Assembly (NCBI GenBank): GCA_017525875.1
Contig: JAFXSG010000007.1
Span: 1-50,505, forward strand
Length of the DNA: 50,505 nt
From: Clostridia bacterium
GTDB lineage: Bacteria; Bacillota; Clostridia; Christensenellales; CAG-138
Reading direction: 5' to 3'
Part shown: piece by piece, positions 373-32,148 of the stretch
Layout of the letters: each line of letters begins with the position of its first letter
Numbering within the stretch: position 1 is the stretch's first letter
The notes under the pieces: generated by a model
What the model was told of the DNA's origin: nothing
What the model saw: the letters and a program-made list of their open reading frames with translations, nothing else
The model's database searches: none
Translations under genes and position numbers: made by a program

Positions 373-2970
373 ATGAAGCTTATCGCGATCGACGGAAACT
401 CACTTATGTTCAGGGCGTTTTACGCTCTGCCGAATATGACGAACCGAGCGGGCGAGCCGACCGGCGCGCTGCACGGCTTTCTTTCCATGCTGCTCAAGCT
501 CGTGGAGATGAAGCCGGATTACCTGCTCGCCGCCTTCGACATGCACACGCCCACCTTCCGCCACGAGCAGTATGCGGACTACAAGGCGGGCCGGCGCGAG
601 ACGCCGCCGGAGCTGAGAGCCCAGTTCCCCGTGCTCAAGGACCTGCTCCGCAGTATGGGCGTCGCCGTCATAGAGTGCGAGCGCTACGAGGCGGACGACA
701 TCCTCGGCACGTTTTCAAGAAAGGCCATGGCCGCAGGCGCGGACGCGCTGCTCGTTACCGGCGACCGCGACGCGCTGCAGCTCATAAACGATAAGGTCCA
801 CGTGCTGATGACCAAGAAGGGCATCACGGAGACCGTGGAATACGACGAGGCGACGCTCAGGGAGGAGTACGGCCTCGAGCCCGCCCGCATGACCGACCTC
901 AAGGGCCTGATGGGCGACAGCTCCGACAATCTGCCCGGCGTAAAGGGCGTGGGCGAAAAGACCGCGCTCAAGCTGCTTGAGAAGTACGGCACGCTCGACG
1001 GGGTGCTCGCGAACGCCGAAAACGAGAAGGGCGCCCTGCGCGAAAAGCTGATCGCCGGGAAAGAGCAGGCGCTCATGAGCCGCCGCCTGGGGACGATCGA
1101 TACGGCCGCGCCGGTCGCGGAGGAGCTTTCGGACTGCCGTTTCGATCCCGCCCGAATGCGCTCGGCGCTTCCGGAGCTGACGAAGCTCGAGCTGCGCGCC
1201 GTCACGAAGCGCGTCGCGGAGCTCTCTCCGGAGGCGGGCGCGGCTCCCGCACCCGCGGCGGAGAATACCGAATACAAAACCGAGGATATCAAGCTGCTGA
1301 CCGCGGAAGAGCTTTTTGCCGCCTGTGCCGCTCTTCGCGGCTCAAAATACTTCGCGCTCGATCTCACGGAGACCGAGGTGCGCTTTGCGGGAAGCGCCGA
1401 GGAGCTTCCCGGCGATATCGCCTGCTATACCGCGCGGCTCGGCGGGACGCTGCTCGAGAGCGGCGTTTCCCCGGAGGACGCGGCTCAAGCGCTCCGTCCC
1501 ATCCTCGAGGACGGGGCCGTGAATAAGGTCGTTTTCGACGGGAAGAAGCTCATGTGGGCGTTTTCAAGGCTCGGTGTGGAGCTTGCCGGGATCGAATTCG
1601 ACGCGATGATCGGCGACTATCTGCTGAACGCGCTGCACCCCGCGAAGGACCTTGCGACCCTTGCCGGGGAAAGCGGGCTCGGCGCTCTGCCCTCCCCCGC
1701 CCAGCTCCTCGTGCTGCGCGAAAAAATGCTCGCGGCCCTTCGGGAAAACGGCATGACGGAGCTGTTCCGAACGGTAGAGCTGCCGCTTGAGACCGTGCTC
1801 TTCGATATGGAGCGCACGGGCTTTATGATCGACCGCGGAGTGCTCGAGGAGCTTGGAAAAAGCATGAAGGAGCGCATAGCGGAGCTCGCGGGCGAGATCC
1901 ACGCGCTTGCGGGCGAGGAGTTCAACATCCTCTCCACAAAGCAGCTCGGGCATATCCTGTTTGAAAAGCTGGGCCTGCCCGCCAAAAAGAAGACCAAGAC
2001 CGGCTACTCGACGGACAGCGACGTGCTCGAGGCGCTCGAGCCGTATCACCCCATCGTGAAGCCGGTCATCGAATACCGTTTCCTAACGAAGCTGCGCTCC
2101 ACCTTCATCGACGCGATGCTCGAAAAGATCGGCCCGGACGGCCGCATCCACACGACGCTGAACCAGAACGTGACCGCGACGGGGCGCATCAGCTCCACGG
2201 AGCCGAACCTGCAGAACATCCCCGTCCGCACGGAGCTCGGGCGGCAGATTCGCCGCGCGTTCATCGCAAGCCCCGGCAATCTCCTCGTCGGCGCGGATTA
2301 TTCCCAGATCGAGCTCCGGGTGCTTGCCCACATGAGCGGGGACCCGACCTTTATCTCCGCGTTCAATAATGGCGAGGATATCCACGCCCGCACCGCGGCG
2401 GAGGTCTTCGGCGTTCCTAAGGACGAGGTGACCCGCGAGATGCGCTCGAGCGCGAAGGCCGTCAATTTCGGCATCGTGTACGGCATTTCCGCGTTCGGCC
2501 TTTCGGAGCAGCTTGGCATCTCCCAGAAGAAGGCGGCGGAATACATTTTAAAATACCTCGACCGCCTGCCCGGCGTGAGGGACTATATGGAAGCCGCGAA
2601 ACAGGCGGGGCGCGAAAAGGGCTATGCCGAAACGCTCTTCGGCAGACGGCGCAGCCTTCCGGAGCTCCGGTCCTCCAACTTCAACACCCGCAGCTTCGGC
2701 GAGCGCGTCGCGATGAACATGCCCATCCAGGGCACCGCGGCGGACATCATCAAGTCCGCCATGGTGAAGGTGCACGAGAGGCTGAAGGGCGAAGGCCTTT
2801 CGGCGAAGCTCGTGCTGCAGATCCACGACGAGCTGCTGATCGACACGCCCGAAAACGAGGCGGAGCGGGTCGCCGCTCTCCTCTCGGAGTGCATGAGCGG
2901 CGTGATCGCCCTCTCCGTGCCGCTCGCGGCGGACGTTGAGGTGGGGCGCAGCTGGTTCGACACGAAATGA
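373..2970 (+). CDS. polA: DNA polymerase I
   Basis: Family A DNA polymerase that fills gaps and removes primers in replication and repair. The 865 residues cover an N-terminal 5'-nuclease domain (about 1-290, with the acidic metal-binding start IAIDGNSLMFRAFYA), a central 3'-5' exonuclease-like domain and a C-terminal polymerase domain. Polymerase motif A (ADYSQIELR, Asp642), motif B (KAVNFGIVYG) and motif C (QIHDELL, Asp819) are intact. The exonuclease-like domain reads ALDLTETE where proofreading enzymes have DTE, and the other exo motifs are not recognisable. It is probably inactive, as in many Firmicutes. GGGAG lies 8 bases before the ATG. It is the first gene of a run with coaE and the transglycosylase. 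Confidence 0.97.
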   Translation: MKLIAIDGNSLMFRAFYALPNMTNRAGEPTGALHGFLSMLLKLVEMKPDYLLAAFDMHTPTFRHEQYADYKAGRRETPPELRAQFPVLKDLLRSMGVAVIECERYEADDILGTFSRKAMAAGADALLVTGDRDALQLINDKVHVLMTKKGITETVEYDEATLREEYGLEPARMTDLKGLMGDSSDNLPGVKGVGEKTALKLLEKYGTLDGVLANAENEKGALREKLIAGKEQALMSRRLGTIDTAAPVAEELSDCRFDPARMRSALPELTKLELRAVTKRVAELSPEAGAAPAPAAENTEYKTEDIKLLTAEELFAACAALRGSKYFALDLTETEVRFAGSAEELPGDIACYTARLGGTLLESGVSPEDAAQALRPILEDGAVNKVVFDGKKLMWAFSRLGVELAGIEFDAMIGDYLLNALHPAKDLATLAGESGLGALPSPAQLLVLREKMLAALRENGMTELFRTVELPLETVLFDMERTGFMIDRGVLEELGKSMKERIAELAGEIHALAGEEFNILSTKQLGHILFEKLGLPAKKKTKTGYSTDSDVLEALEPYHPIVKPVIEYRFLTKLRSTFIDAMLEKIGPDGRIHTTLNQNVTATGRISSTEPNLQNIPVRTELGRQIRRAFIASPGNLLVGADYSQIELRVLAHMSGDPTFISAFNNGEDIHARTAAEVFGVPKDEVTREMRSSAKAVNFGIVYGISAFGLSEQLGISQKKAAEYILKYLDRLPGVRDYMEAAKQAGREKGYAETLFGRRRSLPELRSSNFNTRSFGERVAMNMPIQGTAADIIKSAMVKVHERLKGEGLSAKLVLQIHDELLIDTPENEAERVAALLSECMSGVIALSVPLAADVEVGRSWFDTK

Positions 2971-2986
2971 TTTTTGAGGCGATACC

Positions 2987-3604
2987 ATGATCCTTGGACT
3001 TACCGGCAGCATGGCGAGCGGCAAATCGACGGTCTCCGCCATGCTCAAAGAATACGGTCTGTACGTTCTCGACGCGGACGAAGAAGCCCACGCGGTGCTT
3101 GAGCTGCCCGCCGCGGCGTCAGAGCTTTCCGCGCTTTTCGGGGAGGATATCCTCGATGAAGGCGGCGCGGTCGTGCGCGCAAGGCTCGCGGAAAAGGCGT
3201 TCGCCTCCGCGGAGGAGACGGCGAAGCTCAACGCTGTGATCCACCCCGCGGTGATACGCGCCATGCTTGAAAAGGCGGAGGAGTTTTTGCTCGAATACCC
3301 GGAGATCCCGGTCGTGTTCGACGTGCCGCTCCTTTTCGAGAGCGGGATGGACAGGCTCTGCGACCGCGTGGTGACCGTCGCCGCGGACGACGAGGTGCGC
3401 TATCTGCGCATCATGCTGCGTGACGGGTTGACGAGGGAGCAGGCTTCAAGGCGCATCGCGAGGCAGACGCCGCAGGAGGAGAAGATCGCCCGTTCGGACG
3501 CGGTCGTTTTCAACAACGACACGCTGACGGAGCTCCGCGCGGAGGTCGGCAGAGTGCTTTCGGAGCTCGGCCTCGGCGCTTTCCTGCCGGAAGGAGCGGT
3601 GTGA
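2987..3604 (+). CDS. coaE: Dephospho-CoA kinase
   Basis: Catalyses the last step of coenzyme A synthesis, ATP-dependent phosphorylation of dephospho-CoA. The 205-residue length is typical. The P-loop is GLTGSMASGKST (residues 4-15). DADEEAH follows, in the position of the usual CoaE DAD motif, and the lid region (RRIARQTPQEEK) is near the C-terminus. GAGGCGA precedes the ATG. It starts 16 bases after the polA stop; polA-coaE adjacency is common in Firmicutes. Confidence 0.95.
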   Translation: MILGLTGSMASGKSTVSAMLKEYGLYVLDADEEAHAVLELPAAASELSALFGEDILDEGGAVVRARLAEKAFASAEETAKLNAVIHPAVIRAMLEKAEEFLLEYPEIPVVFDVPLLFESGMDRLCDRVVTVAADDEVRYLRIMLRDGLTREQASRRIARQTPQEEKIARSDAVVFNNDTLTELRAEVGRVLSELGLGAFLPEGAV

Positions 3605-6589: not shown

Positions 6590-6619
6590 TTGACAAAAAG
6601 CGGCTCAATCCGTTATACT
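6590..6619 (+). promoter_or_regulatory. Promoter of the lysine fermentation operon
   Basis: TTGACA (6590-6595) and TATACT (6614-6619) are 18 bases apart. The predicted start near 6626 coincides with the 5' strand of riboswitch stem P1. Confidence 0.85.
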
Positions 6620-6625
6620 GTAACC

Positions 6626-6820
6626 GTGAATAGAGGTGCAGGGGCCGAGGTAAGCTCAGCTAAACGGGCGGTTCCGGCGAAGCGTAATGCGTCCCCTGCC
6701 GAAAGTATGGTCCGCGGCCGCGCGTTCCATGCTTGGGCGCAATGCCCAGCGCATTGCGACTGTCATCTTCGGCTGCTCCCGCCCCCCCCGGCGGGCAAGG
6801 CAAGATGTTGCGCTATTTGA
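6626..6820 (+). promoter_or_regulatory. Lysine riboswitch (L box)
   Basis: Conserved core pieces occur in order: AGAGGTGC (6632-6639), GCCGAA (6698-6703), TTGGG (6733-6737) and ACTGTCA (6759-6765). Five helices can be drawn. P1 pairs 6627-6633 with 6813-6819 (with G-U pairs). P2 pairs GCAGGGG (6638-6644) with CCCCTGC (6693-6699). P3 pairs GTATGG (6705-6710) with CCATGC (6727-6732). P4 pairs CGCAATG (6738-6744) with CATTGCG (6752-6758). P5 pairs CATCTT (6764-6769) with AAGATG (6802-6807) and contains an extra GC-rich hairpin. The 3' strand of P1 overlaps the 5' arm of the terminator at 6810-6853, which predicts that lysine binding prevents termination. The downstream genes degrade lysine, which fits an ON switch. 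Confidence 0.88.
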
Positions 6821-6853
6821 AAAGCACAGGCTTTTCGGCAGCGCGTTTTTTTT
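6810..6853 (+). terminator. Riboswitch-controlled intrinsic terminator
   Basis: The outer stem GCGCT/AGCGC (6810-6814 with 6840-6844) and inner stem GAAAAGC/GCTTTTC (6819-6825 with 6830-6836) are followed by eight T (6846-6853). The outer 5' arm shares bases 6813-6819 with riboswitch P1. With P1 formed, only the inner hairpin remains, and it is nine bases away from the T run. Confidence 0.85.
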
Positions 6854-6889
6854 GTTTAGTACCGAAAATAATCCAGGAGGAAATATAAA

Positions 6890-7330
6890 ATGGCAGAAAA
6901 AATCACATCCACGATCCGCCTTCGCATGAGCTCGCAGGACGCGCATTACGGCGGAAACCTCGTTGACGGCGCTCACATGCTCGCCCTCTTCGGCGACGTG
7001 GCGACCGAGCTGCTCATCAAGTGCGACGGCGACGAAGGCCTCTTCAAGGCCTACGACATGGTCGAGTTCATCGCGCCCGTCTACGCCGGCGACTACATCG
7101 AGGCCTACGGCGAGATCACTAACATCGGCAACAGCTCCCGCCGCATGAGCTTCGAGGCCCGCAAGGTCATCGTCCCCCGCACCGATATCAATGAGTCCGC
7201 GTGCGATTTCCTCGAAGAACCCATCGTCGTCTGCCGTGCGACCGGCACCTGCGTCGTCCCCAAGGATAAGCAGCGCAAGGAGCACGTCGTCGTCGCGAAG
7301 CCGGGCGGCGCCAAGGTCGTCAAGCAATAA
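6890..7330 (+). CDS. kal: 3-aminobutyryl-CoA ammonia-lyase
   Basis: Removes ammonia from L-3-aminobutyryl-CoA to give crotonyl-CoA in lysine fermentation. The 146-residue hotdog-fold protein carries the family phrases [23 protein letters not shown] and DEGLFKAYD. The ribosome site AGGAGG lies 11 bases before the ATG. It is the first gene behind the lysine riboswitch and is followed by kce after 14 bases. Codons are strongly biased to C-ending forms, as in the next genes, which fits high expression. The assignment is supported by both sequence and neighbourhood. Confidence 0.93.
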
Positions 7331-7344
7331 GGAGAAAAGCTGTA

Positions 7345-8172
7345 ATGGAAAAGCTTATCATCACGGCCGCCATCTGCGGCGCGGAAGTCACCAAGGAGCA
7401 TAACCCCGCCGTCCCGTACACCGTTCGTGAGATGGTCAACGAAGCCAAGAGCGCCTACAACGCCGGCGCCGCCATCATCCACGTGCACGTCCGTGAGGAC
7501 GACGGCACCCCCACGCAGAGCCGCGAGCGTTTCCGCGTGGTCATGGACGCGATCCGCGCTGAACTGCCGGACGTTATCATGATCCCCTCCACCGGCGGCG
7601 CGACCGGCATGAGCCCCGAAGAGCGCCTGCAGCCCACCGAGCTGTTCCCCGAGATGGCCACGCTCGACTGCGGCACCTGCAATTTCGGCGATGAGATCTT
7701 CGACAACACCATGCCCAACATGCGCGTTTTCGGCAGGCGCATGATCGAGAACGGCATCAAGCCCGAGTACGAGTGCTTTGAGATGGGTCATATCGACACC
7801 ATCCTCGACATGGCGAGAAAGGGCGAGGTCCCCGGCGACCCGATGCAGTTCAACTTCGTTCTCGGCGTCAAGGGCTGCACCCCCGCGACCGTTCAGAACC
7901 TCTGCTGGATGGTGAACGCCATCCCGGCAAACGCCACCTGGACCGCGACCGGCATCGGCAGGGCCGCGTTCACCCTCGCCGCGCCGACGATCGTCATGGG
8001 CGGCAACGTCCGCGTCGGCTTTGAGGACAATATCTATCTTTCCCGCGGCGTCAAGGCCGTTTCTAACGGCGCGCTCGTCGAGAAGGTCGTCCGCCTCAGC
8101 CGCGAGCTCGGCCGCGAGATCGCTTCCCCGGAGGAAGCAAGGCGCATCCTCAGCCTCAAGCCGCTGAAATAA
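7345..8172 (+). CDS. kce: 3-keto-5-aminohexanoate cleavage enzyme
   Basis: Zn-dependent BKACE-family enzyme. It condenses 3-keto-5-aminohexanoate with acetyl-CoA and cleaves it to acetoacetate and 3-aminobutyryl-CoA, the substrate of Kal. The 275 residues show the family start LIITAAICGAEVTKEHNP, the metal-binding IIHVHVRE, the phrase STGGATGMS, and GGNVRVGFEDN near the C-terminus. AAGGAG precedes the ATG. It lies between kal and kdd in the riboswitch operon. The BKACE family acts on several beta-keto acids, but the neighbours point to the lysine pathway. Confidence 0.94.
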   Translation: MEKLIITAAICGAEVTKEHNPAVPYTVREMVNEAKSAYNAGAAIIHVHVREDDGTPTQSRERFRVVMDAIRAELPDVIMIPSTGGATGMSPEERLQPTELFPEMATLDCGTCNFGDEIFDNTMPNMRVFGRRMIENGIKPEYECFEMGHIDTILDMARKGEVPGDPMQFNFVLGVKGCTPATVQNLCWMVNAIPANATWTATGIGRAAFTLAAPTIVMGGNVRVGFEDNIYLSRGVKAVSNGALVEKVVRLSRELGREIASPEEARRILSLKPLK

Positions 8173-8210: not shown

Positions 8211-9254
8211 ATGGAACAACTTAAAGGAAACAAGTACGGCACTCACCGCGTTATCGAGCCGAAGGGCGTTCTGACCCAGGCGGCATGGAAGATCGACAAC
8301 GACATGACCAAGCGTTACAGCAACGAGATCATCTGCGACGTCATCTCCCTCAACATCGACTCCGCTTCCTTCACCCAGATCGAGGAAGCCTGCGGCGGCG
8401 ACGAGCAGAAGATCGCCGACATGATCATGGGCATCGTCGCTGAGCGCGGCAAGCAGCAGAACCCCGTCACCGGCAGCGGCGGCATGTTCATCGGCAAGGT
8501 CGCCTACATCGGCGAAGACCTCAAGGACCGCGACCTCAAGGTCGGCGACAAGATCGCTTCCCTCGTTTCCCTCTCCCTCACCCCCCTCAAGATCGAAAAG
8601 ATCCTCGCTGTTCATAAGGATATCGACCGCGTCGACATCGTCGGCCAGGCTGTCCTCTTCGAGAGCGGCATCTATGCCAAGCTCCCCGAAGACATGAGCG
8701 AGCCCCTCGCCCTCGCGGCGCTCGACGTCGCCGGCGCACCCGCGCAGGCACGCAAGCTGCCCAAGGAAGGCGACAGCGTCCTCATCCTCGGCGCAAACGG
8801 CAAGAGCGGCGTTCTCTGCGGCTATGAGGCCATGAAGAAGGTCGGCCCGAACGGCAACGTCGTCGGCGTCGTCCGCAACCCGAAGCAGGTCCCGGCTCTG
8901 ATGGAGCTCGGCGTCTACAACAAGGTCATCGTCGCCAGCGCGACCGAGCCCGTTGCGGTGCTCGAAGCTGCGCTCGAGGCCAACGGCGGCAAGGAGTACG
9001 ACATCTCCATCTGCTGCGTCAACGTTGAAAACTGCGAGATGAGCGCGATCCTCCCCGTCCGTGACGACGGTATCGTCTACTTCTTCTCCATGGCGACCAG
9101 CTTCACCAAGGCGGCCCTCGGCGCGGAAGGCATCGGCAAGGACGTCACCATGATCATCGGCAACGGCTACACCAAGGACCATGCCGAGATCACGCTGAAC
9201 GTGCTGCGCGAGAACGAGAAGCTCCGCAAGCTGTTCGACGAGAAATACTGCTAA
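8211..9254 (+). CDS. kdd: L-erythro-3,5-diaminohexanoate dehydrogenase
   Basis: Oxidatively deaminates 3,5-diaminohexanoate with NAD(P)+ to 3-keto-5-aminohexanoate, the substrate of Kce. The 347 residues match the family opening (GNKYGTHRVIEPKGVLTQAA). A nucleotide-binding stretch follows (VLILGANGKSGVLCGYEA), with a Rossmann-type glycine pattern. GGAGG precedes the ATG. It is 38 bases after kce. A stable hairpin (about 9267-9293) follows the stop but lacks a T tract. Confidence 0.93.
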   Translation: MEQLKGNKYGTHRVIEPKGVLTQAAWKIDNDMTKRYSNEIICDVISLNIDSASFTQIEEACGGDEQKIADMIMGIVAERGKQQNPVTGSGGMFIGKVAYIGEDLKDRDLKVGDKIASLVSLSLTPLKIEKILAVHKDIDRVDIVGQAVLFESGIYAKLPEDMSEPLALAALDVAGAPAQARKLPKEGDSVLILGANGKSGVLCGYEAMKKVGPNGNVVGVVRNPKQVPALMELGVYNKVIVASATEPVAVLEAALEANGGKEYDISICCVNVENCEMSAILPVRDDGIVYFFSMATSFTKAALGAEGIGKDVTMIIGNGYTKDHAEITLNVLRENEKLRKLFDEKYC

Positions 9255-9525
9255 GGTTATGTCTCCGCTGCCCCTCTCACCGGGGGCGGCGGATCCATAC
9301 TTCCGCCCGGTGCAGTTTGGGCCCTTCGGAGGCTCTCCGGCGCTCCGCTTTGCCGCCCGAAAGCGTATTCACCGCGCTTGAGGCTGCAGCTTTTCATTGA
9401 GCACTCTTCTTTTCATGAGGTTCAGGATTCCTCCTATCCCCACATTGCACGGAGCCCGGGCACCGGGCGATCTTTTCCCACCAAATATCTGAAAGGAGCC
9501 GGGTTTGCGAAAGCGCAAACGGTGA
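9255..9525 (+). other. kdd-kamA intergenic region with hairpins; hairpin between SD and kamA start
   Basis: No gene is seen. A CCGC-GCCCC/GGGGC-GCGG hairpin lies at 9267-9293, and a GCCCGG/CCGGGC hairpin at 9454-9468 is followed by GATCTTTT, a weak terminator at best. AAAGGAG (9492-9498) is 27 bases from the kamA ATG, too far for normal use. A perfect 7-bp hairpin GTTTGCG/CGCAAAC (9503-9509 with 9514-9520) lies between them and would reduce the effective spacing to about 9 bases. Confidence 0.6.
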
Positions 9526-10800
9526 ATGAATATGAATAAAAGCAGACAGTACGGCCTTTTTACCGACGTTCCCGACGAGCTTTGGAACGACTGGCGCTGG
9601 CAGGTGCAGAACCGCATCGAAACGCTGGACGATCTGAAGAAATACATCGCTCTCACCCCCGAAGAGGAGGAGGGCGTGCGCAAATGCCTCGGAACGCTCC
9701 GCATGGCGATCACCCCCTACTATCTCTCCCTGATAAATCCCGACGATCCCTATGATCCCGTCCGCCGCCAGTGCATCCCGTCCGCCGCGGAGCTCTATCA
9801 GGCGCCCGAGGATCAGCTCGACCCGCTGCACGAGGACACCGACTCCCCCGTGCCCGGCCTCACCCACCGCTATCCGGACCGCGTCCTGTTCCTGATCACC
9901 GACCAGTGCTCCATGTACTGCCGCCACTGCACCAGGCGCAGGTTCGCCGGCCAGCACGACACCGCCGTTCCCGACTGCCAGATCGAAGCCTGCCTCGACT
10001 ATATCCGCAATCATCCCGAGGTGCGCGACGTGCTGCTTTCCGGCGGCGACGCGCTGATGCAGAGCGATGAAAAGCTTGAGTACATCATCTCCGAGCTCCG
10101 CAAGATCGAGCACGTGGAGATCGTCCGCCTCGGCAGCCGCACCCCGGTCGTCATGCCCCAGAGGATCACGCCGGAGCTGTGCGCAATGCTCAAAAAATAC
10201 CATCCCATCTGGCTGAACACGCATTTCAACCACCCGAACGAGATCACCGAGGAATCCAAGCGCGCCTGCGAAATGCTGGCCGACGCCGGCATCCCGCTCG
10301 GCAACCAGAGCGTTCTGCTCGCGGGCGTCAACGACTGCGTCCACGTGATGAAGAAGCTCGTCAACGAGCTCGTCCGCATCCGCGTCCGCCCGTACTACAT
10401 CTACGTGTGCGACCTTTCCATGGGCCTCAGTCACTTCCGCACGCCGGTCAGCAAGGGCATCGAGATCATCGAAGGTCTCCGCGGCCACACCAGCGGCTAC
10501 TGCGTGCCCACCTTCGTTGTGGACGCGCCGGGCGGCGGCGGCAAGACCCCCGTCATGCCGAACTACGTCATCTCCCAGACCCCGAGGAAGACCATCCTGA
10601 GGAACTTCGAGGGCGTTATCACCACCTATACGGAGCCCGAGCACTACGACAACACCTGCCACTGCGAGACCTGCCGCAAGGCGCGCGGCGAGCAGCCGAA
10701 CCTCGTCGGCGTCGCGGGCCTCGAGCAGGGCCGCACCGACGGAAGGATCTCCCTTGAACCGAACGACCTCGAGAGGCTCAAGAGGGGCAGAAAGAATTAA
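9526..10800 (+). CDS. kamA: L-lysine 2,3-aminomutase
   Basis: Radical SAM, PLP-dependent enzyme that converts L-lysine to L-beta-lysine, the first step of lysine fermentation. The 424 residues carry the Fe-S motif Cys128-x3-Cys132-x2-Cys135 (CSMYCRHC), GGDAL for SAM binding, and the PLP lysine in GGGGKTPVMPNY (Lys340). These positions match the characterised clostridial enzyme with an offset of three. The ATG at 9526 is followed by a second at 9532; the shorter form is possible. The Shine-Dalgarno sequence is separated from the start by a hairpin. A terminator-like repeat lies between this gene and kamD. Confidence 0.96.
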   Translation: MNMNKSRQYGLFTDVPDELWNDWRWQVQNRIETLDDLKKYIALTPEEEEGVRKCLGTLRMAITPYYLSLINPDDPYDPVRRQCIPSAAELYQAPEDQLDPLHEDTDSPVPGLTHRYPDRVLFLITDQCSMYCRHCTRRRFAGQHDTAVPDCQIEACLDYIRNHPEVRDVLLSGGDALMQSDEKLEYIISELRKIEHVEIVRLGSRTPVVMPQRITPELCAMLKKYHPIWLNTHFNHPNEITEESKRACEMLADAGIPLGNQSVLLAGVNDCVHVMKKLVNELVRIRVRPYYIYVCDLSMGLSHFRTPVSKGIEIIEGLRGHTSGYCVPTFVVDAPGGGGKTPVMPNYVISQTPRKTILRNFEGVITTYTEPEHYDNTCHCETCRKARGEQPNLVGVAGLEQGRTDGRISLEPNDLERLKRGRKN

Positions 10801-10874: not shown

Positions 10875-12452
10875 ATGGAAAGCAAACTTAACCTCAACCG
10901 TGAGCTCGTCGACAAGGCCCGGCAGCACGCGAGGCGCATCGCCGAGGACACGCAGAACTTTATCGATATCCATACCACCGTCACGGTGGAGCGCGCCGTG
11001 TGCCGTCTGTTCGGCATCGACGGCGTGAACGCGCTTGAAGTGCCCCTTCCGAACGTCGTTGTGGATCACCTTGTGGACAAGGGCATTTTGTCCGGCGGCG
11101 CGGCGTACTACATCGGCAACGCGATGTGCGAAACGGGTCTTGATCCCCAGAGGATCGCCGAGGGCATCGACGCGGGCGAGATCGACCTTTCTAAGATGGC
11201 TCCGCACACGATGGAGGAGATCCGCGCGGCGATCATGCCCGTTGCGGAGGCGACCGTGGAGCGCATAAAGAAAAACGTCGCAAAGCGCAATGAATACCTG
11301 AATGAATTCGGCGATAAGCAGGGCCCCTACCTCTACGTCATCGTCGCCACCGGCAATATCTACGAGGATATCACCCAGGCGAAGGCGGCGGCGAAGCAGG
11401 GCGCAGACATCATCGCCGTCATCCGCACCACGGGCCAGAGCCTGCTCGACTACGTGCCCTACGGCGCGACGACCGAGGGCTTCGGCGGCACCTACGCCAC
11501 GCAGGAGAACTTCCGCCTGATGCGCGCCGCGCTCGACGAGGTCGGCGAGGAGCAGCACCGCTACATCCGCCTGTGCAATTACTGCTCCGGCCTGTGCATG
11601 CCGGAGATCGCCGCGATGGGCGCGCTCGAAAGGCTGGACGTCATGCTGAACGACGCGCTGTACGGCATCCTCTTCCGCGATATCAACATGCAGCGCACGA
11701 TCGTGGACCAGTTCTTCAGCCGCGTCATCAACAGCTTCGCGGGAGTCATCATCAACACGGGCGAGGATAACTACCTCACCACCGCCGACGCGGTCGAAGA
11801 GGCGCACACGGTGCTCGCCTCCCAGTTCCTCAACGAGCAGTTCGCGCTCAAGGCAGGCCTGCCCGAGGAGCAGCAGGGTCTCGGCCACGCGTTCGAGATC
11901 TCGCCGGACGTTGAGAACGGCTTCCTCTACGAGCTTGCGCAGGCGCAGATGGCGAGGGAGATCTTCCCCAAGGCCCCCCTCAAGTATATGCCCCCCACCA
12001 AGTTCATGACGGGCAATATCTTCCGCGGGCACGTGCAGGACGCGCTGTTCAACATGGTCACGATCCTGACCGGTCAGAAGCTCCACCTGCTCGGCATGAT
12101 GACCGAGGCGATCCACACGCCGTTCATGAGCGACCGCGCGCTCTCCATCGAAAACGCGCAGTACATCTTCCGCACGATGCACGACCTCGGCAGCGAGCTT
12201 TCCTACAAGAAGGGCGGCATCATGGAAACGAGGGCGAACTTCGTGCTCCAAAAGGCGGCCGACCTGCTTGGCGAGATCGAGCACATGGGCCTGTTCGCAA
12301 CGCTCGAAAAGGGCGTGTTTGCGGACATCAAGCGCCCGCGCGACGGCGGCAAGGGCCTTGCGGGCGTTGTGACCAAGGCGGAGAATTACTTCAATCCCTT
12401 CGTTGAACTGATGTGGAACGAGGAAGTTGCGAAAGGCGGTGAAAACGCATGA
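10875..12452 (+). CDS. kamD: Lysine 5,6-aminomutase alpha subunit
   Basis: Catalytic TIM-barrel subunit of the adenosylcobalamin- and PLP-dependent mutase that moves the terminal amino group of beta-lysine (or D-lysine) to give 3,5-diaminohexanoate. The 525 residues open with the family phrase LVDKARQHARRIAEDT. The stretches ATGNIYEDITQAKAAAKQGA, GQSLLDYVPYGATTEGFGGT and YCSGLCMPEIAAMGALERL are typical. AGGAGGT precedes the ATG. Its stop overlaps the kamE start by four bases (ATGA), so the two subunits are translationally coupled. Confidence 0.96.
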   Translation: MESKLNLNRELVDKARQHARRIAEDTQNFIDIHTTVTVERAVCRLFGIDGVNALEVPLPNVVVDHLVDKGILSGGAAYYIGNAMCETGLDPQRIAEGIDAGEIDLSKMAPHTMEEIRAAIMPVAEATVERIKKNVAKRNEYLNEFGDKQGPYLYVIVATGNIYEDITQAKAAAKQGADIIAVIRTTGQSLLDYVPYGATTEGFGGTYATQENFRLMRAALDEVGEEQHRYIRLCNYCSGLCMPEIAAMGALERLDVMLNDALYGILFRDINMQRTIVDQFFSRVINSFAGVIINTGEDNYLTTADAVEEAHTVLASQFLNEQFALKAGLPEEQQGLGHAFEISPDVENGFLYELAQAQMAREIFPKAPLKYMPPTKFMTGNIFRGHVQDALFNMVTILTGQKLHLLGMMTEAIHTPFMSDRALSIENAQYIFRTMHDLGSELSYKKGGIMETRANFVLQKAADLLGEIEHMGLFATLEKGVFADIKRPRDGGKGLAGVVTKAENYFNPFVELMWNEEVAKGGENA

Positions 12453-13237
12453 GCGGAGGACTTTATAACACCCACAAAGCGGATTTCGACACCACTCTGG
12501 ACCTCACCCGCCTCAAGGCGTACGGCGACACGATGAACGACGGCAAGGTGCAGTTCAGCTTCACCCTCCCCGTTAAAAACGACGAGCGCGGCATGGAGGC
12601 CGCGCGTCAGCTCGTCCGCAAGATGGGCGTTGAGGAGCCGAACGTCGCGATCGCGAAGCCTCTCGACAAGGAGTTCACCTTCTACGTCGTGTACGGCTCC
12701 GTCGTCCACAGCGTGGACTATGAGAACATCCACGTTCAGACCGTCGAGGAAGAGACGATGAGCATGGAGGACACCGACGCGTACATCCGCGAGCATTTCG
12801 GCCGCAAGATCGTGATGATCGGCGCATCCACCGGCACGGACGCGCACACCGTCGGCATCGACGCGATCATGAACCGCAAGGGCTTCGCCGGTCACTACGG
12901 GCTTGAGCGCTACGAGATGATCGAGGCGATCAACCTGGGCGCGCAGGTGCCGAACGAGGAGTTCCTCAAAAAGGCGCTCGAGGTAAACGCGGACGTGCTG
13001 CTCATCAGCCAGACCGTCACCCAGAAGGATATCCACATCCAGAACCTGACGGAGTTCGTTGAGCTGCTCGAGGCGGAGGGCCTGAGGGACCGTTTCGTTA
13101 TCTGCTGCGGCGGTCCGCGCATCACGCACGAGCTTGCAAAGGAGCTCGGCTTCGACGCGGGCTTCGGCGCGGGCAAATACGCGGATGACGTTGCGACCTT
13201 CGCCGTCACCGAAATGGTGAAGCGCGGGATGAAGTGA
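12449..13237 (+). CDS. kamE: Lysine 5,6-aminomutase beta subunit
   Basis: Cobalamin- and PLP-binding partner of KamD. In the 262 residues the B12 motif D-x-H-x2-G is D131-A-H133-T-V-G136, where His133 should be the lower axial ligand of cobalt. The PLP-binding lysine is Lys144 in NRKGFAG. Both numbers coincide with those published for the Clostridium sticklandii enzyme. The C-terminal Rossmann-like B12 domain has VLLISQTVTQKDIHIQNL and CCGGPRI. It is the last gene of the lysine operon; no CoA-transferase, lysine permease or kamB/kamC-like gene follows. A CTTCATTA repeat element starts about 20 bases after the stop. Confidence 0.96.
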   Translation: MSGGLYNTHKADFDTTLDLTRLKAYGDTMNDGKVQFSFTLPVKNDERGMEAARQLVRKMGVEEPNVAIAKPLDKEFTFYVVYGSVVHSVDYENIHVQTVEEETMSMEDTDAYIREHFGRKIVMIGASTGTDAHTVGIDAIMNRKGFAGHYGLERYEMIEAINLGAQVPNEEFLKKALEVNADVLLISQTVTQKDIHIQNLTEFVELLEAEGLRDRFVICCGGPRITHELAKELGFDAGFGAGKYADDVATFAVTEMVKRGMK

Positions 13238-14334: not shown

Positions 14335-14348
14335 GTTTCGGTTTGTTA

Positions 14349-14672
14349 TCAGAACTCGACCGTCCTCGGCGGCTCCGTGAAGGAGCAAAAATCCGCCCTT
14401 GCGTTTTTGAAATAGAGCACCTCGGTGTTCCCGTCGTTCTCGTCGTACATGGAGCGGAGGTTCGGGTATGCGTCGAGCATGTGCTTTTTCGCCTCCACGC
14501 GCTCGTCGCGCACGAGCTCGCCCGAGAGCCTCAGCCACCTGCCGTCCCTGAAGGCGCAGAGCTCCACCTTCGGGTTTTTCTCGATCTGCTTCGATACGTT
14601 CTTGACCTTGCCCATCTGGATATAGAGCCTGTCTTCAAAGACGTCGATCGTGCCGAACGGGCGCACGCGCGG
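14349..14672 (-). pseudogene. 5'-truncated copy of the PNPOx-like gene
   Basis: This stretch repeats codons from PRVRPFGT to the stop of the intact gene at 15824-16216. I count about 11 mismatches in some 320 aligned bases. The first 25 or so residues, including the N-terminal strand, are missing; upstream of the break the frame runs into a TGA. A GTG at 14666 could start a 105-residue product, but no ribosome site was seen. It ends at the terminator at 14305-14334, so it is probably the original 3' end of the gene, cut off by the insertion of the acyltransferase block. Confidence 0.8.
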
Positions 14673-14693: not shown

Positions 14694-15782
14694 TCAGATA
14701 CCGGATGCAATCTTGTCAACCAGCCTGTTTATCCAGCCCCCGACCTTGTCCGCCGCAAGGTCGATACGACACACCTTGAACAAAAGCTGCCGCAGTTTAT
14801 CGATAAGAATCGAAACGAGAACGAACAGAGCCGCAAAGCCGATCACGAAAGCTACCATACCAACGACCGATCCATTTGCAAGGAAAGCAAAGGAGTCCGT
14901 CAGCGTGATGTCACGAACGAACACATGCGTGTTAAGCAAATAACCGGCGAAAGCACCGGACGCCAGGAAACCGATAACCCGCGCTGCTTTGTTCCCTATC
15001 CTTAGTCTTGAAAAGGTAATCAAACAGAAGATCGCTGCGCAAAGCAACGTCGGAGAAAGGTGTGAGAATAGCATGTTTTCCGATATAGCGACCGGGAGCG
15101 AACCGCCCAGCATTTTCCATGCCCATGAAAAGGTGCACATAAGCACGATGCCGAAAATACAGAACACCGTTTTGATATTTTTACCGATATCGCATTTTTT
15201 GATAATGGAGCCCATTGTGTAAAGAAGAACGAGCCACAATACTGAGTATCCGCCGTTTAAGTCAAATTGGCTCGCAAAGATTTCAAAGCATGAGAAGACC
15301 GCAAAAACAGCAACAAATACTTTTCTGGCGGTAATTTCGGACATAGAACTGACAGCCTCGTCCAGCAGCGGTTTTATGAAGAATAAACCGGTGTAGGCCG
15401 TGAAATACCAGTACAATCCCTTTCTGACCTGAAAAAACATCGACAACACGTCGCGGAACGTCACGACTTCCGGCATTATCCTCCAATAAACAATTCCGAT
15501 CACTACGCCGTAAAAAGTCACTTGAAGCCAACGCTTGATATATGATGAAACCTTCGTTTTCCGTCTGACATCGGAATAAGCAACGTAGCCGCTGATCAAT
15601 GCGAAAATATCAACGCAACAATACGCAAACATTTCCAGATACCAGCCGACCGCATACATCATCGATCCTTGGCTTGACGCACGCAATACGCCGCCCGTGC
15701 CCAGCGTGTGCGAGATAATGACAAGAAACATGGATACTATGCGGAGAAGTTCTATTCCGTAGTTTCTTTCTCTTTTTTCCAT
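14694..15782 (-). CDS. Acyltransferase-3 family membrane protein
   Basis: Probable O-acyltransferase for a cell-surface glycan. The 362 residues open with RNYGIELLRIVSMFLVIISH, the typical start of this family with the arginine-containing ELLR motif and the catalytic histidine at the end of helix 1. About ten transmembrane helices follow. Base composition is visibly more AT-rich than in the surrounding genes. It lies between an intact PNPOx-like gene and a truncated copy of it, so it was probably acquired. I see no strong ribosome site before the ATG at 15782. The substrate is unknown. Confidence 0.88.
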   Translation of the reverse strand: MEKRERNYGIELLRIVSMFLVIISHTLGTGGVLRASSQGSMMYAVGWYLEMFAYCCVDIFALISGYVAYSDVRRKTKVSSYIKRWLQVTFYGVVIGIVYWRIMPEVVTFRDVLSMFFQVRKGLYWYFTAYTGLFFIKPLLDEAVSSMSEITARKVFVAVFAVFSCFEIFASQFDLNGGYSVLWLVLLYTMGSIIKKCDIGKNIKTVFCIFGIVLMCTFSWAWKMLGGSLPVAISENMLFSHLSPTLLCAAIFCLITFSRLRIGNKAARVIGFLASGAFAGYLLNTHVFVRDITLTDSFAFLANGSVVGMVAFVIGFAALFVLVSILIDKLRQLLFKVCRIDLAADKVGGWINRLVDKIASGI

Positions 15783-15823
15783 ATGTGCTCTGTTATTCTC
15801 ATTAATCCATCGGTCTCGACTGA

Positions 15824-16216
15824 TCAGAACTCGACCGTCCTCGGCGGCTCCGTGAAGGAGCAGAAATCCGCCCTTGCGTTTTTGAAATAGAGCACCTCTG
15901 TGTTCCCGTCGTTCTCGTCGTACATGGAGCGGAGGTTCGGGTATTGATCCAGCATGTGCTTTTTCGCCTCCACGCGCTCGTCGCGCACGAGCTCGCCGGA
16001 AAGCCTCAGCCACCGGCCGTCTCTGAAGGCGCAGAGCTCCACCTTCGGGTTCTTCTCGATCTGCTTCGATACGTTCTTGACCTTGCCCATCTGGATATAG
16101 AGCCTGTCTTCAAAGACGTCGATCGTGCCGAACGGGCGCACGCGCGGCCGGTCGCCGTCGACGGTCGCGAGAAAATACACGCCGCATTCCTTAAGGAATT
16201 CATAGACTTCGTTCAT
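15824..16216 (-). CDS. Pyridoxamine 5'-phosphate oxidase-like flavin-binding protein
   Basis: 130 residues with the split-barrel layout. MNEVYEFLKECGVYFLATVDGDRPRVRPFG is the usual opening of small PNPOx-like proteins, in which the Arg-Pro-Arg segment contacts the flavin phosphate. IEKNPKVELCAF and the C-terminal tail also fit. Such proteins bind FMN or F420-like cofactors; the substrate is unknown. It follows the FMN reductase gene by 18 bases in the same orientation, so the two may work together. The 3' part is duplicated at 14349-14672. Confidence 0.88.
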   Translation of the reverse strand: MNEVYEFLKECGVYFLATVDGDRPRVRPFGTIDVFEDRLYIQMGKVKNVSKQIEKNPKVELCAFRDGRWLRLSGELVRDERVEAKKHMLDQYPNLRSMYDENDGNTEVLYFKNARADFCSFTEPPRTVEF

Positions 16217-30944: not shown

Positions 30945-31979
30945 TCAATACTTGAGCGCTGTCCTGATCGCCTTGCGGAACGGGGGAAGCAGGGCGATCA
31001 CGACACAGATCGCGATATCAGCGAGCATGTACGGCGCGTTGTAAACGAGGGAAGCCCAGAGGTTGGGCCCGATCATCTGCGCGAAGGTCATGCCTGTTTC
31101 CGCGCCTTCACCGAGCATAACGTACTTGCCGAAGAAGATCGCGCCGCCGATGAAGTGGCTGAGGAAGCGCGCGATGCCGCCGATCAGCGCGGAGAACACC
31201 AGATTTCTCTCGCCGCGGACGAGGCCGCCGAGGCCGATGAGCGCGAACGCGAGCGGATAGTCGAAGATGAACTGGAGCCAGTGCACGAACCAGCCGCCCT
31301 GGACGTACTGCAGGATGCCGTACACGAGGCCGGCGAGCATGCCGTTGCGCACGCCGTAGCGGTTCGCGTAGACCATGAGCGGCAGCATGCTTGCGAGCGT
31401 GACGGAGCCGCCGGTGGGCATTGAGAACAGCTTGACGTAGCTGAGCACGAAGCTGAGCGCGATGCAGAGCGCGCCGTGGATCAGCACGATCGTGGGGCTG
31501 ACCTTCTGACCGACGCCGGTGTCGGGCGTCTTCCTGCGGGTAGCGAGGAAAACGATCAGCGCGACGGCGATCGCGGCCGCGCCCGCGAGGAAGATCCAAT
31601 CCTTGGTCTCGAGCTTTTTGAGCTTCTCGAACAGGACGAACCCGATGCCCTCTTTTTCTTCGCCGGTGGTCTCGGCGTCATCCGCGCCGGTGGTCTCGGC
31701 GCTGTTTTCGCCGGTGGTCAGCGTGTCCTCCGCGCCGGTGGTCAGCACGCCTTCCCCGGGCGCGTCGTCGCCATCCTTGGGCGCGTCGGCGTCATCGGAG
31801 GATACGGGTGCGTCGGCGTCGGGCGCTTCGGCGTCTTCGGAGCTCATCGTCGCCGACATCTCGCCCTCCTCGGCCAAAACGAGGCCGGGACGGGTGAAGC
31901 CCATGGAAACGAGGCACAGGCATACCGCAAGGCAGATGACAGCCGCGGTCAGCACGGCGTTCATAAAGCCCTTCTTCAT
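30945..31979 (-). CDS. thiT: ECF thiamine transporter S component with acidic N-terminal extension
   Basis: Substrate-binding membrane subunit of an energy-coupling-factor thiamine importer. The last 190 residues are ThiT-like: HGALCIALSFVLSYVKLFSMP, GGSVTLASMLPLMVYANRYG and the thiamine-contact region YVQGGWFVHWLQFIFDYPLAF. ThiT alone is usually about 190 residues. Here a predicted signal peptide or first helix, about 90 acidic residues (with repeated TTG-acidic units such as LTTGAED, LTTGENS, ETTGADD) and an extra membrane helix come first. A TPP riboswitch and terminator lie upstream, confirming the thiamine link. Confidence 0.9.
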   Translation of the reverse strand: MKKGFMNAVLTAAVICLAVCLCLVSMGFTRPGLVLAEEGEMSATMSSEDAEAPDADAPVSSDDADAPKDGDDAPGEGVLTTGAEDTLTTGENSAETTGADDAETTGEEKEGIGFVLFEKLKKLETKDWIFLAGAAAIAVALIVFLATRRKTPDTGVGQKVSPTIVLIHGALCIALSFVLSYVKLFSMPTGGSVTLASMLPLMVYANRYGVRNGMLAGLVYGILQYVQGGWFVHWLQFIFDYPLAFALIGLGGLVRGERNLVFSALIGGIARFLSHFIGGAIFFGKYVMLGEGAETGMTFAQMIGPNLWASLVYNAPYMLADIAICVVIALLPPFRKAIRTALKY

Positions 31980-32027: not shown

Positions 32028-32046
32028 AATAGCTTTTATTTCCGTA

Positions 32047-32127
32047 CCGCTTCCCTACGCAGGTATTACCCCAACAGGTTCAAAGGCTCATTCTCAGCCC
32101 GGGGTCTCCCCCGTGCGCGCCCAGCGG
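32047..32127 (-). promoter_or_regulatory. TPP (thiamin pyrophosphate) riboswitch
   Basis: Minus-strand sequence contains GGGCTGAGAATGAGCC, CTTTGAACCTG, GGGGTAATACCTGCGTAGGGAAG, the conserved THI-element core. P1 pairs CCGCT (32127-32123) with AGCGG (32051-32047). It should switch thiT off when TPP is plentiful. Confidence 0.96.
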
Positions 32128-32148
32128 AGCTATTCGGTTTTCGGGCAT

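Follow-up and report, generated by a model that had tools for sequence, protein, structure and literature searches.

In nature, lysine riboswitches are chiefly known for repressing genes. Engineered lysine-ON riboswitches, in which lysine turns expression on, also exist; these are artificial, whereas the riboswitch considered here lies in a natural catabolic leader. In the pbuE adenine riboswitch of Bacillus subtilis, which is an ON switch, the terminator and the P1 helix compete for the 3′ strand of P1. The same competition for the P1 3′ strand is predicted for the present locus, with a different aptamer and ligand. Closer in target, lysine riboswitches have been described upstream of kal/kce in Clostridium sticklandii, Fusobacterium nucleatum, Thermoanaerobacter tengcongensis, and T. 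wiegelii, and the kal/kce genes of these four species are called positively regulated on the authority of a review cited in the same section (PMC5584792). The riboswitch described below is like these in its aptamer family, its target genes, and the stated positive control. That section gives no terminator mechanism, whereas the geometry was worked out here and then checked across 79 kal loci, of which one family of Christensenellaceae-like Clostridia supplied 69. Barrick and Breaker (2007) attributed ON logic to certain lysine, glycine, and adenine riboswitches and, citing Rodionov et al. (2003), described pieces of the terminator stem as buried in the lysine ON type (PMC2258182). Partial burial of the terminator stem in an alternative pairing on metabolite binding is also what we propose here, although the published statement is general, unlike the locus-level geometry reported below. 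An ON lysine riboswitch upstream of kal/kce is therefore already in print as a prediction. In the open-licence literature, no title or abstract opening was recognized as reporting an experiment that tests a natural lysine ON switch upstream of catabolic genes.

The window analyzed here is a stretch of 50,505 nucleotides from a Clostridia bacterium, in which a lysine riboswitch aptamer precedes the genes kal, kce, kdd, kamA, kamD, and kamE (Table 1). We propose, with a probability of roughly 0.88, that this leader acts as a transcriptional ON riboswitch for lysine controlling the six genes, a reading that rests on sequence and computed folds. All six genes exceed the curated cut-offs of NCBIfam equivalog models, and in combination they are peculiar to lysine fermentation via lysine 2,3- and 5,6-aminomutases, which bears out the initial annotation in placing the riboswitch before lysine-fermentation genes. 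The six genes are presumably carried by a single transcript. The 270-base gap between kdd and kamA (positions 9255 to 9525) contains one weak terminator-like hairpin (9454 to 9468), and no promoter-like match was found in it. Upstream of the aptamer, the position of the promoter-like site leads us to expect that the RNA begins at about position 6626, just before P1. A promoter-like match within 75 nt before P1 was present at 72 of the 79 kal loci, whereas none of 79 segments taken further upstream contained one.

Table 1. Coordinates of the leader elements, the lysine-fermentation genes, and a second riboswitch in the window
Feature	Position	Strand	Basis
Sigma-70-type promoter-like site, TTGACA-18-TATACT	6590-6619	+	11/12 matches
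Lysine riboswitch aptamer RF00168, P1-P5	6623-6823	+	Rfam, 54.6 bits (gathering score 30)
P1 helix, 5′ strand GAATAG	6628-6633	+	Rfam alignment
P5, extended	6764-6807	+	Rfam alignment (23-base loop insert), fold
GC hairpin inserted in P5, CCCGCC-C6-GGCGGG	6778-6795	+	Fold
J5/1	6809-6812	+	Rfam alignment
P1 helix, 3′ strand CTATTT, common to aptamer and terminator	6813-6818	+	Rfam alignment, folding
Terminator hairpin	6809-6845	+	Fold; -17.4 kcal/mol for the hairpin alone
Terminator outer arm, 6 bp	6809-6814/6840-6845	+	Fold; 5′ arm is J5/1 and the start of the P1 3′ strand
Terminator inner hairpin, 7-9 bp, beyond an internal loop	6817-6825/6830-6838	+	Fold
T8 run of the intrinsic terminator	6846-6853	+	Sequence
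kal ribosome-binding site, AGGAGG	6875-6880	+	Sequence
kal, 3-aminobutyryl-CoA ammonia-lyase	6890-7330	+	NF052388, 196.6 bits (cut-off 160)
kce, 3-keto-5-aminohexanoate cleavage enzyme	7345-8172	+	NF052387, 410.8 bits (cut-off 382)
kdd, L-erythro-3,5-diaminohexanoate dehydrogenase	8211-9254	+	NF052381, 263.2 bits (cut-off 200)
kamA (ablA), lysine 2,3-aminomutase	9526-10800	+	TIGR03820, 629.4 bits (cut-off 525.4)
kamD, lysine 5,6-aminomutase alpha	10875-12452	+	NF052384, 926.2 bits (cut-off 600)
kamE, lysine 5,6-aminomutase beta	12449-13237	+	NF052385, 401.8 bits (cut-off 280)
TPP riboswitch	32035-32132	-	58.1 bits (gathering score 54.3)

Elsewhere in the window, the TPP riboswitch precedes a membrane-protein open reading frame (30945 to 31979, minus strand) that resembles a thiamine transporter by eye. 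A direct repeat of 300 bases, 96% identical between its copies (14348 to 14647 and 15823 to 16122, 1475 apart), has most of the minus-strand open reading frame 14694 to 16013 between them; a small gene, flavin-oxidase-like by eye, appears to have been duplicated here recently.

A covariance-model scan for the lysine family, which had been proposed with the initial annotation, was run on the leader. The RF00168 model matched over its full length (model positions 1 to 182; E value of 1.2e-13) with a score above the gathering score, confirming the aptamer with helices P1 to P5 that had been recognized ahead of the kal operon. The core signature (AGAGGNGC, GCCGAA, and CTGTCA) is intact, and a search for AGAGGTGC, GCCGAA, and CTGTCA in this order and spacing returned a single occurrence in the 2.49-Mb source genome, as compared to none for a reversed control pattern. 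The score is nevertheless low relative to the 81.9 to 109.6 bits obtained at non-kal control loci of the family. The J5/1 region (TTGCG) is, as judged by eye, unlike that of most relatives, and folding of the whole leader (6624 to 6860) was unexceptional (z of -1.8, with 10 of 200 shuffles as good). The initial annotation also described P5 as longer than usual, with an inserted GC hairpin. The extension is real and is a genus trait, though variable inside the genus: P5 spans 40 to 59 bases, of varied sequence, in 8 of 10 kal loci of the same genus and 22 and 26 bases in the remaining two, against a median of 23 (13 to 33) in 68 other kal loci. The long P5 is peripheral to the switch.

The default fast-filter Rfam scan of the whole window and the RF00168 family search of the source genome both reported no lysine riboswitch. 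Given the full-model match, these absences were rejected as false negatives, probably due to the divergence of the aptamer and the 23-base insert in the P5 loop. A strict-filter RF00168 search likewise returned nothing in six genomes of the family (that of the window, G016, G018, G021, G022, and G031), and scans of short sequences recovered a riboswitch ahead of kal in the same six. Fast scans thus under-report such switches, the one in the window being missed by the default scan and, together with those of five further family members, by the strict-filter search.

Kal scored over the cut-off in 69 of the 103 genomes of the family, including that of the window, and approximately 800 bases upstream of kal were taken for all 68 other loci. 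Grouped scans detected RF00168 on the kal strand at 66 of these 68 loci, and the remaining two (L097 and L101) were recovered when scanned singly (63.6 and 55.1 bits). All 69 family kal genes over the cut-off are therefore preceded by an aptamer that passes the gathering score; a fragmentary Kal match in G019 and a weak one in G089, both from the family but under the cut-off, lie outside this count.

The kal-linked riboswitch is rarer outside the family. A sample of the phylum contained 77 other genomes with Kal over the cut-off; the motif signature was found in 3 (L033, L050, and L058) of 29 of them examined, a few of which had little sequence upstream of kal, and an Rfam scan of 12 of the 29 gave one match, L131, which is the same gene as L033. 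Among the best 80 of 230 Kal relatives, the signature was present upstream of kal in 31, comprising 24 family members and 7 records labelled Lachnospiraceae. None of the records labelled Bacteroidales or Lutibacter among these best 80 had it upstream of kal, and in L251 the match was on the opposite strand. The signature can miss some aptamers, since it recovered only 39 of 50 in a comparison set, as against 67 of the 68 known ones at kal. Ten kal loci outside the family combine an aptamer with a terminator spanning P1, namely, L131, L050, L058, and the seven labelled Lachnospiraceae (L224, L242, L252, L261, L266, L268, and L271; L252 by motif signature only). The L224 contig carries two lysine aptamers (2118 to 2293 and 2953 to 3129), which flank the kal match (2501 to 2884) at a distance of about 835 bases from each other; a loose copy of the aptamer 3′ edge lies behind the first.

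The aptamer class points to lysine as the probable ligand. An ON switch for a near relative of L-lysine, such as β-lysine, the product of KamA, could be suspected from the scores of the kal-linked aptamers, 50.3 to 91.4 bits as compared to 119.9 to 142.1 bits for the phylum controls L171 to L200, a comparison that is biased because these controls are among the best-scoring matches and the matches listed reach down to 29.0 bits. The intact core of the window aptamer, the loosened form of the signature at 67 of the 68 kal loci tested, and the scores above gathering at all 69 family loci argue against a change of ligand, which the biology does not require. We consider such a change improbable and retain lysine as the ligand in what follows.

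Downstream of P5, the outer 5′ arm of the terminator is made up of J5/1 and the two leading bases of the P1 3′ strand, whose remaining bases fall within the hairpin. Since the 5′ arm consists of J5/1 and P1 bases, the closed aptamer and the full terminator are mutually exclusive. The initial annotation had located the P1 3′ strand at 6813 to 6819, which is right to one base, and a terminator built on it at 6810 to 6853, in agreement with the hairpin and T8 run found here. The segment 6795 to 6860 folded at -23.7 kcal/mol, as compared to a mean of -16.0 kcal/mol for shuffled sequences, and 2 of 200 shuffles were as good. A simple terminator scanner reported no terminator between 6500 and 6900, because its rule leaves no room for the internal loop. 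For a transcript ending at 6853, the best fold contained the terminator (-95.7 kcal/mol), and forcing P1 gave a structure 5.6 kcal/mol worse (-90.1 kcal/mol). In the P1-forced fold, an inner 7-bp hairpin (6819 to 6825 with 6830 to 6836) remained, separated from the T run by nine bases (6837 to 6845), precisely as had been predicted for the lysine-bound form. Folding of the growing transcript gave averaged P1 pairing probabilities of 0.69 to 0.86 at ends 6818 to 6824, 0.29 at 6830, 0.83 at 6836, 0.31 at 6842, and 0.00 from 6845, at which end the outer terminator helix reached 0.87; these are equilibrium values, and the energies ignore tertiary contacts and speed.

In the mechanism that we propose, the RNA would begin just before P1 and the aptamer would fold first, with P1 closing after transcription of position 6818. 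With lysine bound, P1 and J5/1 would be held and the 5′ arm of the terminator would be unavailable. The one hairpin still able to form would be the short inner one, which lies nine bases short of the T run, and the polymerase would continue into the kal operon. Without lysine, the emerging segment 6840 to 6845 (AGCGCG) would, through strand exchange, capture J5/1 and the P1 3′ strand, allowing the full terminator to form and transcription to end at about 6850. The lysine pocket is built at a junction that includes J5/1. Binding must therefore hold bases needed by the terminator, so that lysine would act against termination and the switch would be of the ON type. Calculation gave the match to the aptamer model, the mutual exclusion of the helices, the order in which they form as the transcript grows, and the conservation of these helices; the mechanism further supposes that lysine binds in time and that binding affects expression. 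The ON logic fits the purpose of catabolic genes.

An ordinary OFF switch, in which lysine promotes termination and closes the operon as it does before biosynthesis genes, would be the conventional expectation, since it is as OFF switches that lysine riboswitches are most familiar. For those of biosynthesis operons, OFF behavior has been demonstrated in B. subtilis and Escherichia coli, according to PMC11477304. The window does not contain the classical OFF arrangement, a separate terminator free of the P1 3′ strand. Aptamer sequence makes up the terminator 5′ arm, and the closed aptamer cannot coexist with the full terminator, as set out above. The same contrast was obtained when kal loci were compared with other lysine riboswitches. 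For this comparison, a compact terminator was defined as a hairpin of at most 50 bases with an energy of -8 kcal/mol or better and a U run. The kal set comprised 79 loci (69 from the family, L131, and nine others). The control set comprised 48 non-kal lysine riboswitches, of which 18 were from the family, preceding genes that we take, by eye from their translations, to encode NhaC-like proteins, amino-acid ABC binding proteins, and one LysA-like protein, and 30 were from the phylum (L171 to L200), at places that differ from those of kal. A compact terminator was found at 76 of the 79 kal loci, and one spanned the P1 3′ strand in all 76; it was the strongest compact terminator at 68 of these loci and the first at 70, and at 8 loci the strongest one did not span P1. 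Controls had a compact terminator in 45 of 48 cases, which spanned P1 in 2 of the 45 (L179 and L188) and was the strongest in neither, leaving 43 without a P1-spanning compact terminator. These results support the ON geometry claimed in the initial annotation, both in the window and in its relatives, and make an OFF switch very unlikely.

Longer P1-spanning terminators at L071 and L224 bring the total to 78 of 79 kal loci; L106, from the same genus as the window, had no recognizable terminator. The 50-base limit was chosen after a first, unfiltered scan with a less clean control set had been seen. In that scan, which admitted long hairpins, L146, L160, L163, and L164 were counted as overlapping P1, and weaker P1-overlapping hairpins were recorded at L145, L150, L179, L186, and L188. 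The limit was adopted because the hairpins of the former four are, by eye, long alternative folds with compact terminators downstream. At L098 and L106, the first scan gave no terminator that covered the entire P1 3′ strand; the compact scan recovered one at L098. L078, L086, and L092, which have a poor hairpin when the first U run is taken, were counted in the compact scan. Aptamer ends were set by hand at L065 and L067, moved from a second to the first 3′ edge, and were placed by short anchors at L097, L101, and the nine extra-family loci other than L131. The relatives are not independent, and the counts therefore overstate the number of events.

Positions 1 to 6 of the P1 3′ strand pair with the P1 5′ strand at 79, 79, 78, 77, 69, and 43 of the 79 loci and with the terminator 3′ arm at 76, 75, 40, 66, 69, and 74 of 79, respectively. 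The terminator pairs were read from the fold and are therefore standard by construction, so that only their variety is evidence. Position 5 forms GC (22 loci), GT (21), AT (19), TA (4), CG (2), and TG (1) pairs, and position 6 forms CG (49), AT (10), TA (6), GC (5), GT (3), and TG (1) pairs. The six pair types at each of these positions indicate that the terminator arm follows the P1 3′ strand as the strand changes. For P1 itself, the pairing fraction over 34 distinct combinations was 0.858, as compared to a shuffled mean of 0.799, a value reached in 0 of 2,000 shuffles, with relatedness kept in.

The divergence of the aptamer in the genus of the window, together with the lack of a recognizable terminator at L106 in that genus, could suggest a decayed riboswitch whose terminator acts as a constant attenuator on which lysine has no effect. 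Decay is extremely unlikely in view of the retention of the aptamer ahead of every family kal gene over the cut-off (69/69), of the P1-spanning terminator at all kal loci but one (78/79), and of the promoter-like site at most of them (72/79). We therefore keep to a lysine ON switch as the probable reading.

Some relatives carry an additional element. A 13-base copy of the 3′ edge of the aptamer, which takes in the P5 3′ strand, J5/1, and the P1 3′ strand, lies behind the first terminator at 22 of the 79 kal loci, in seven genera of the family (L063 to L069, L073 to L076, L079, L082, L096, L102 to L104, L108, L111, L113, L117, and L120); GATGGTGCGCTAT and GACGGAGCGCTAT are examples. The copy is absent from the window. 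The strict motif used for this count was written after the copies had been seen and leaves out L084, L131, and L224, whose copies are looser. It occurred in shuffled leaders at a mean of 0.01 per 79 over 100 sets and in 0 of the 48 controls. A search tolerating three mismatches returned 24 of 68 loci, including some matches plainly due to chance. In 17 of the 22 loci, under a lenient rule for the U run, a second hairpin with a U run behind it has the copy as its 5′ arm. At L065 and L067, cmscan itself placed the end of the aptamer at the second copy.

These arrangements may represent a single-aptamer, two-checkpoint ON switch, in which one ligand pocket is read twice, a reading of the sequences that we offer tentatively and to which we give somewhat less than even odds. 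The aptamer would pass from its first to its second 3′ strand as the polymerase advances, and the first terminator would close harmlessly behind the polymerase. At the loci compared, the second copy is able to pair with the same P5 5′ strand; covariation between the two (CATC/GATG and CGTC/GACG) carries little weight, being limited to one or two lineages. P1 pairs better with the second copy than with the first at L073, L082, L096, L102, L103, L104, L108, L111, L113, L117, L120, and L224, about equally well at L076, and worse at L079, L084, and 9 of the 10 g19 loci. Because the energies of the hand-over are mixed across genera, the second hairpin may instead simply be a spare terminator or be left over from a duplication. 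Tandem riboswitches also place serial terminators in one leader, and in the table of one survey, in its flattened form, several platforms appear only with several aptamers (PMC9481103). In the relatives of the window, only the 3′ edge of the aptamer is copied. Among the literature matches listed, no title corresponded to two platforms behind one aptamer. If functional, the copied edge and second terminator would provide a sharper response without a second aptamer.

The probable lysine ON switches found across the family, all before one operon, constitute a natural series for studying reversed riboswitch logic. They also offer a plausible way for gut and rumen anaerobes to keep lysine fermentation closed unless lysine is available.
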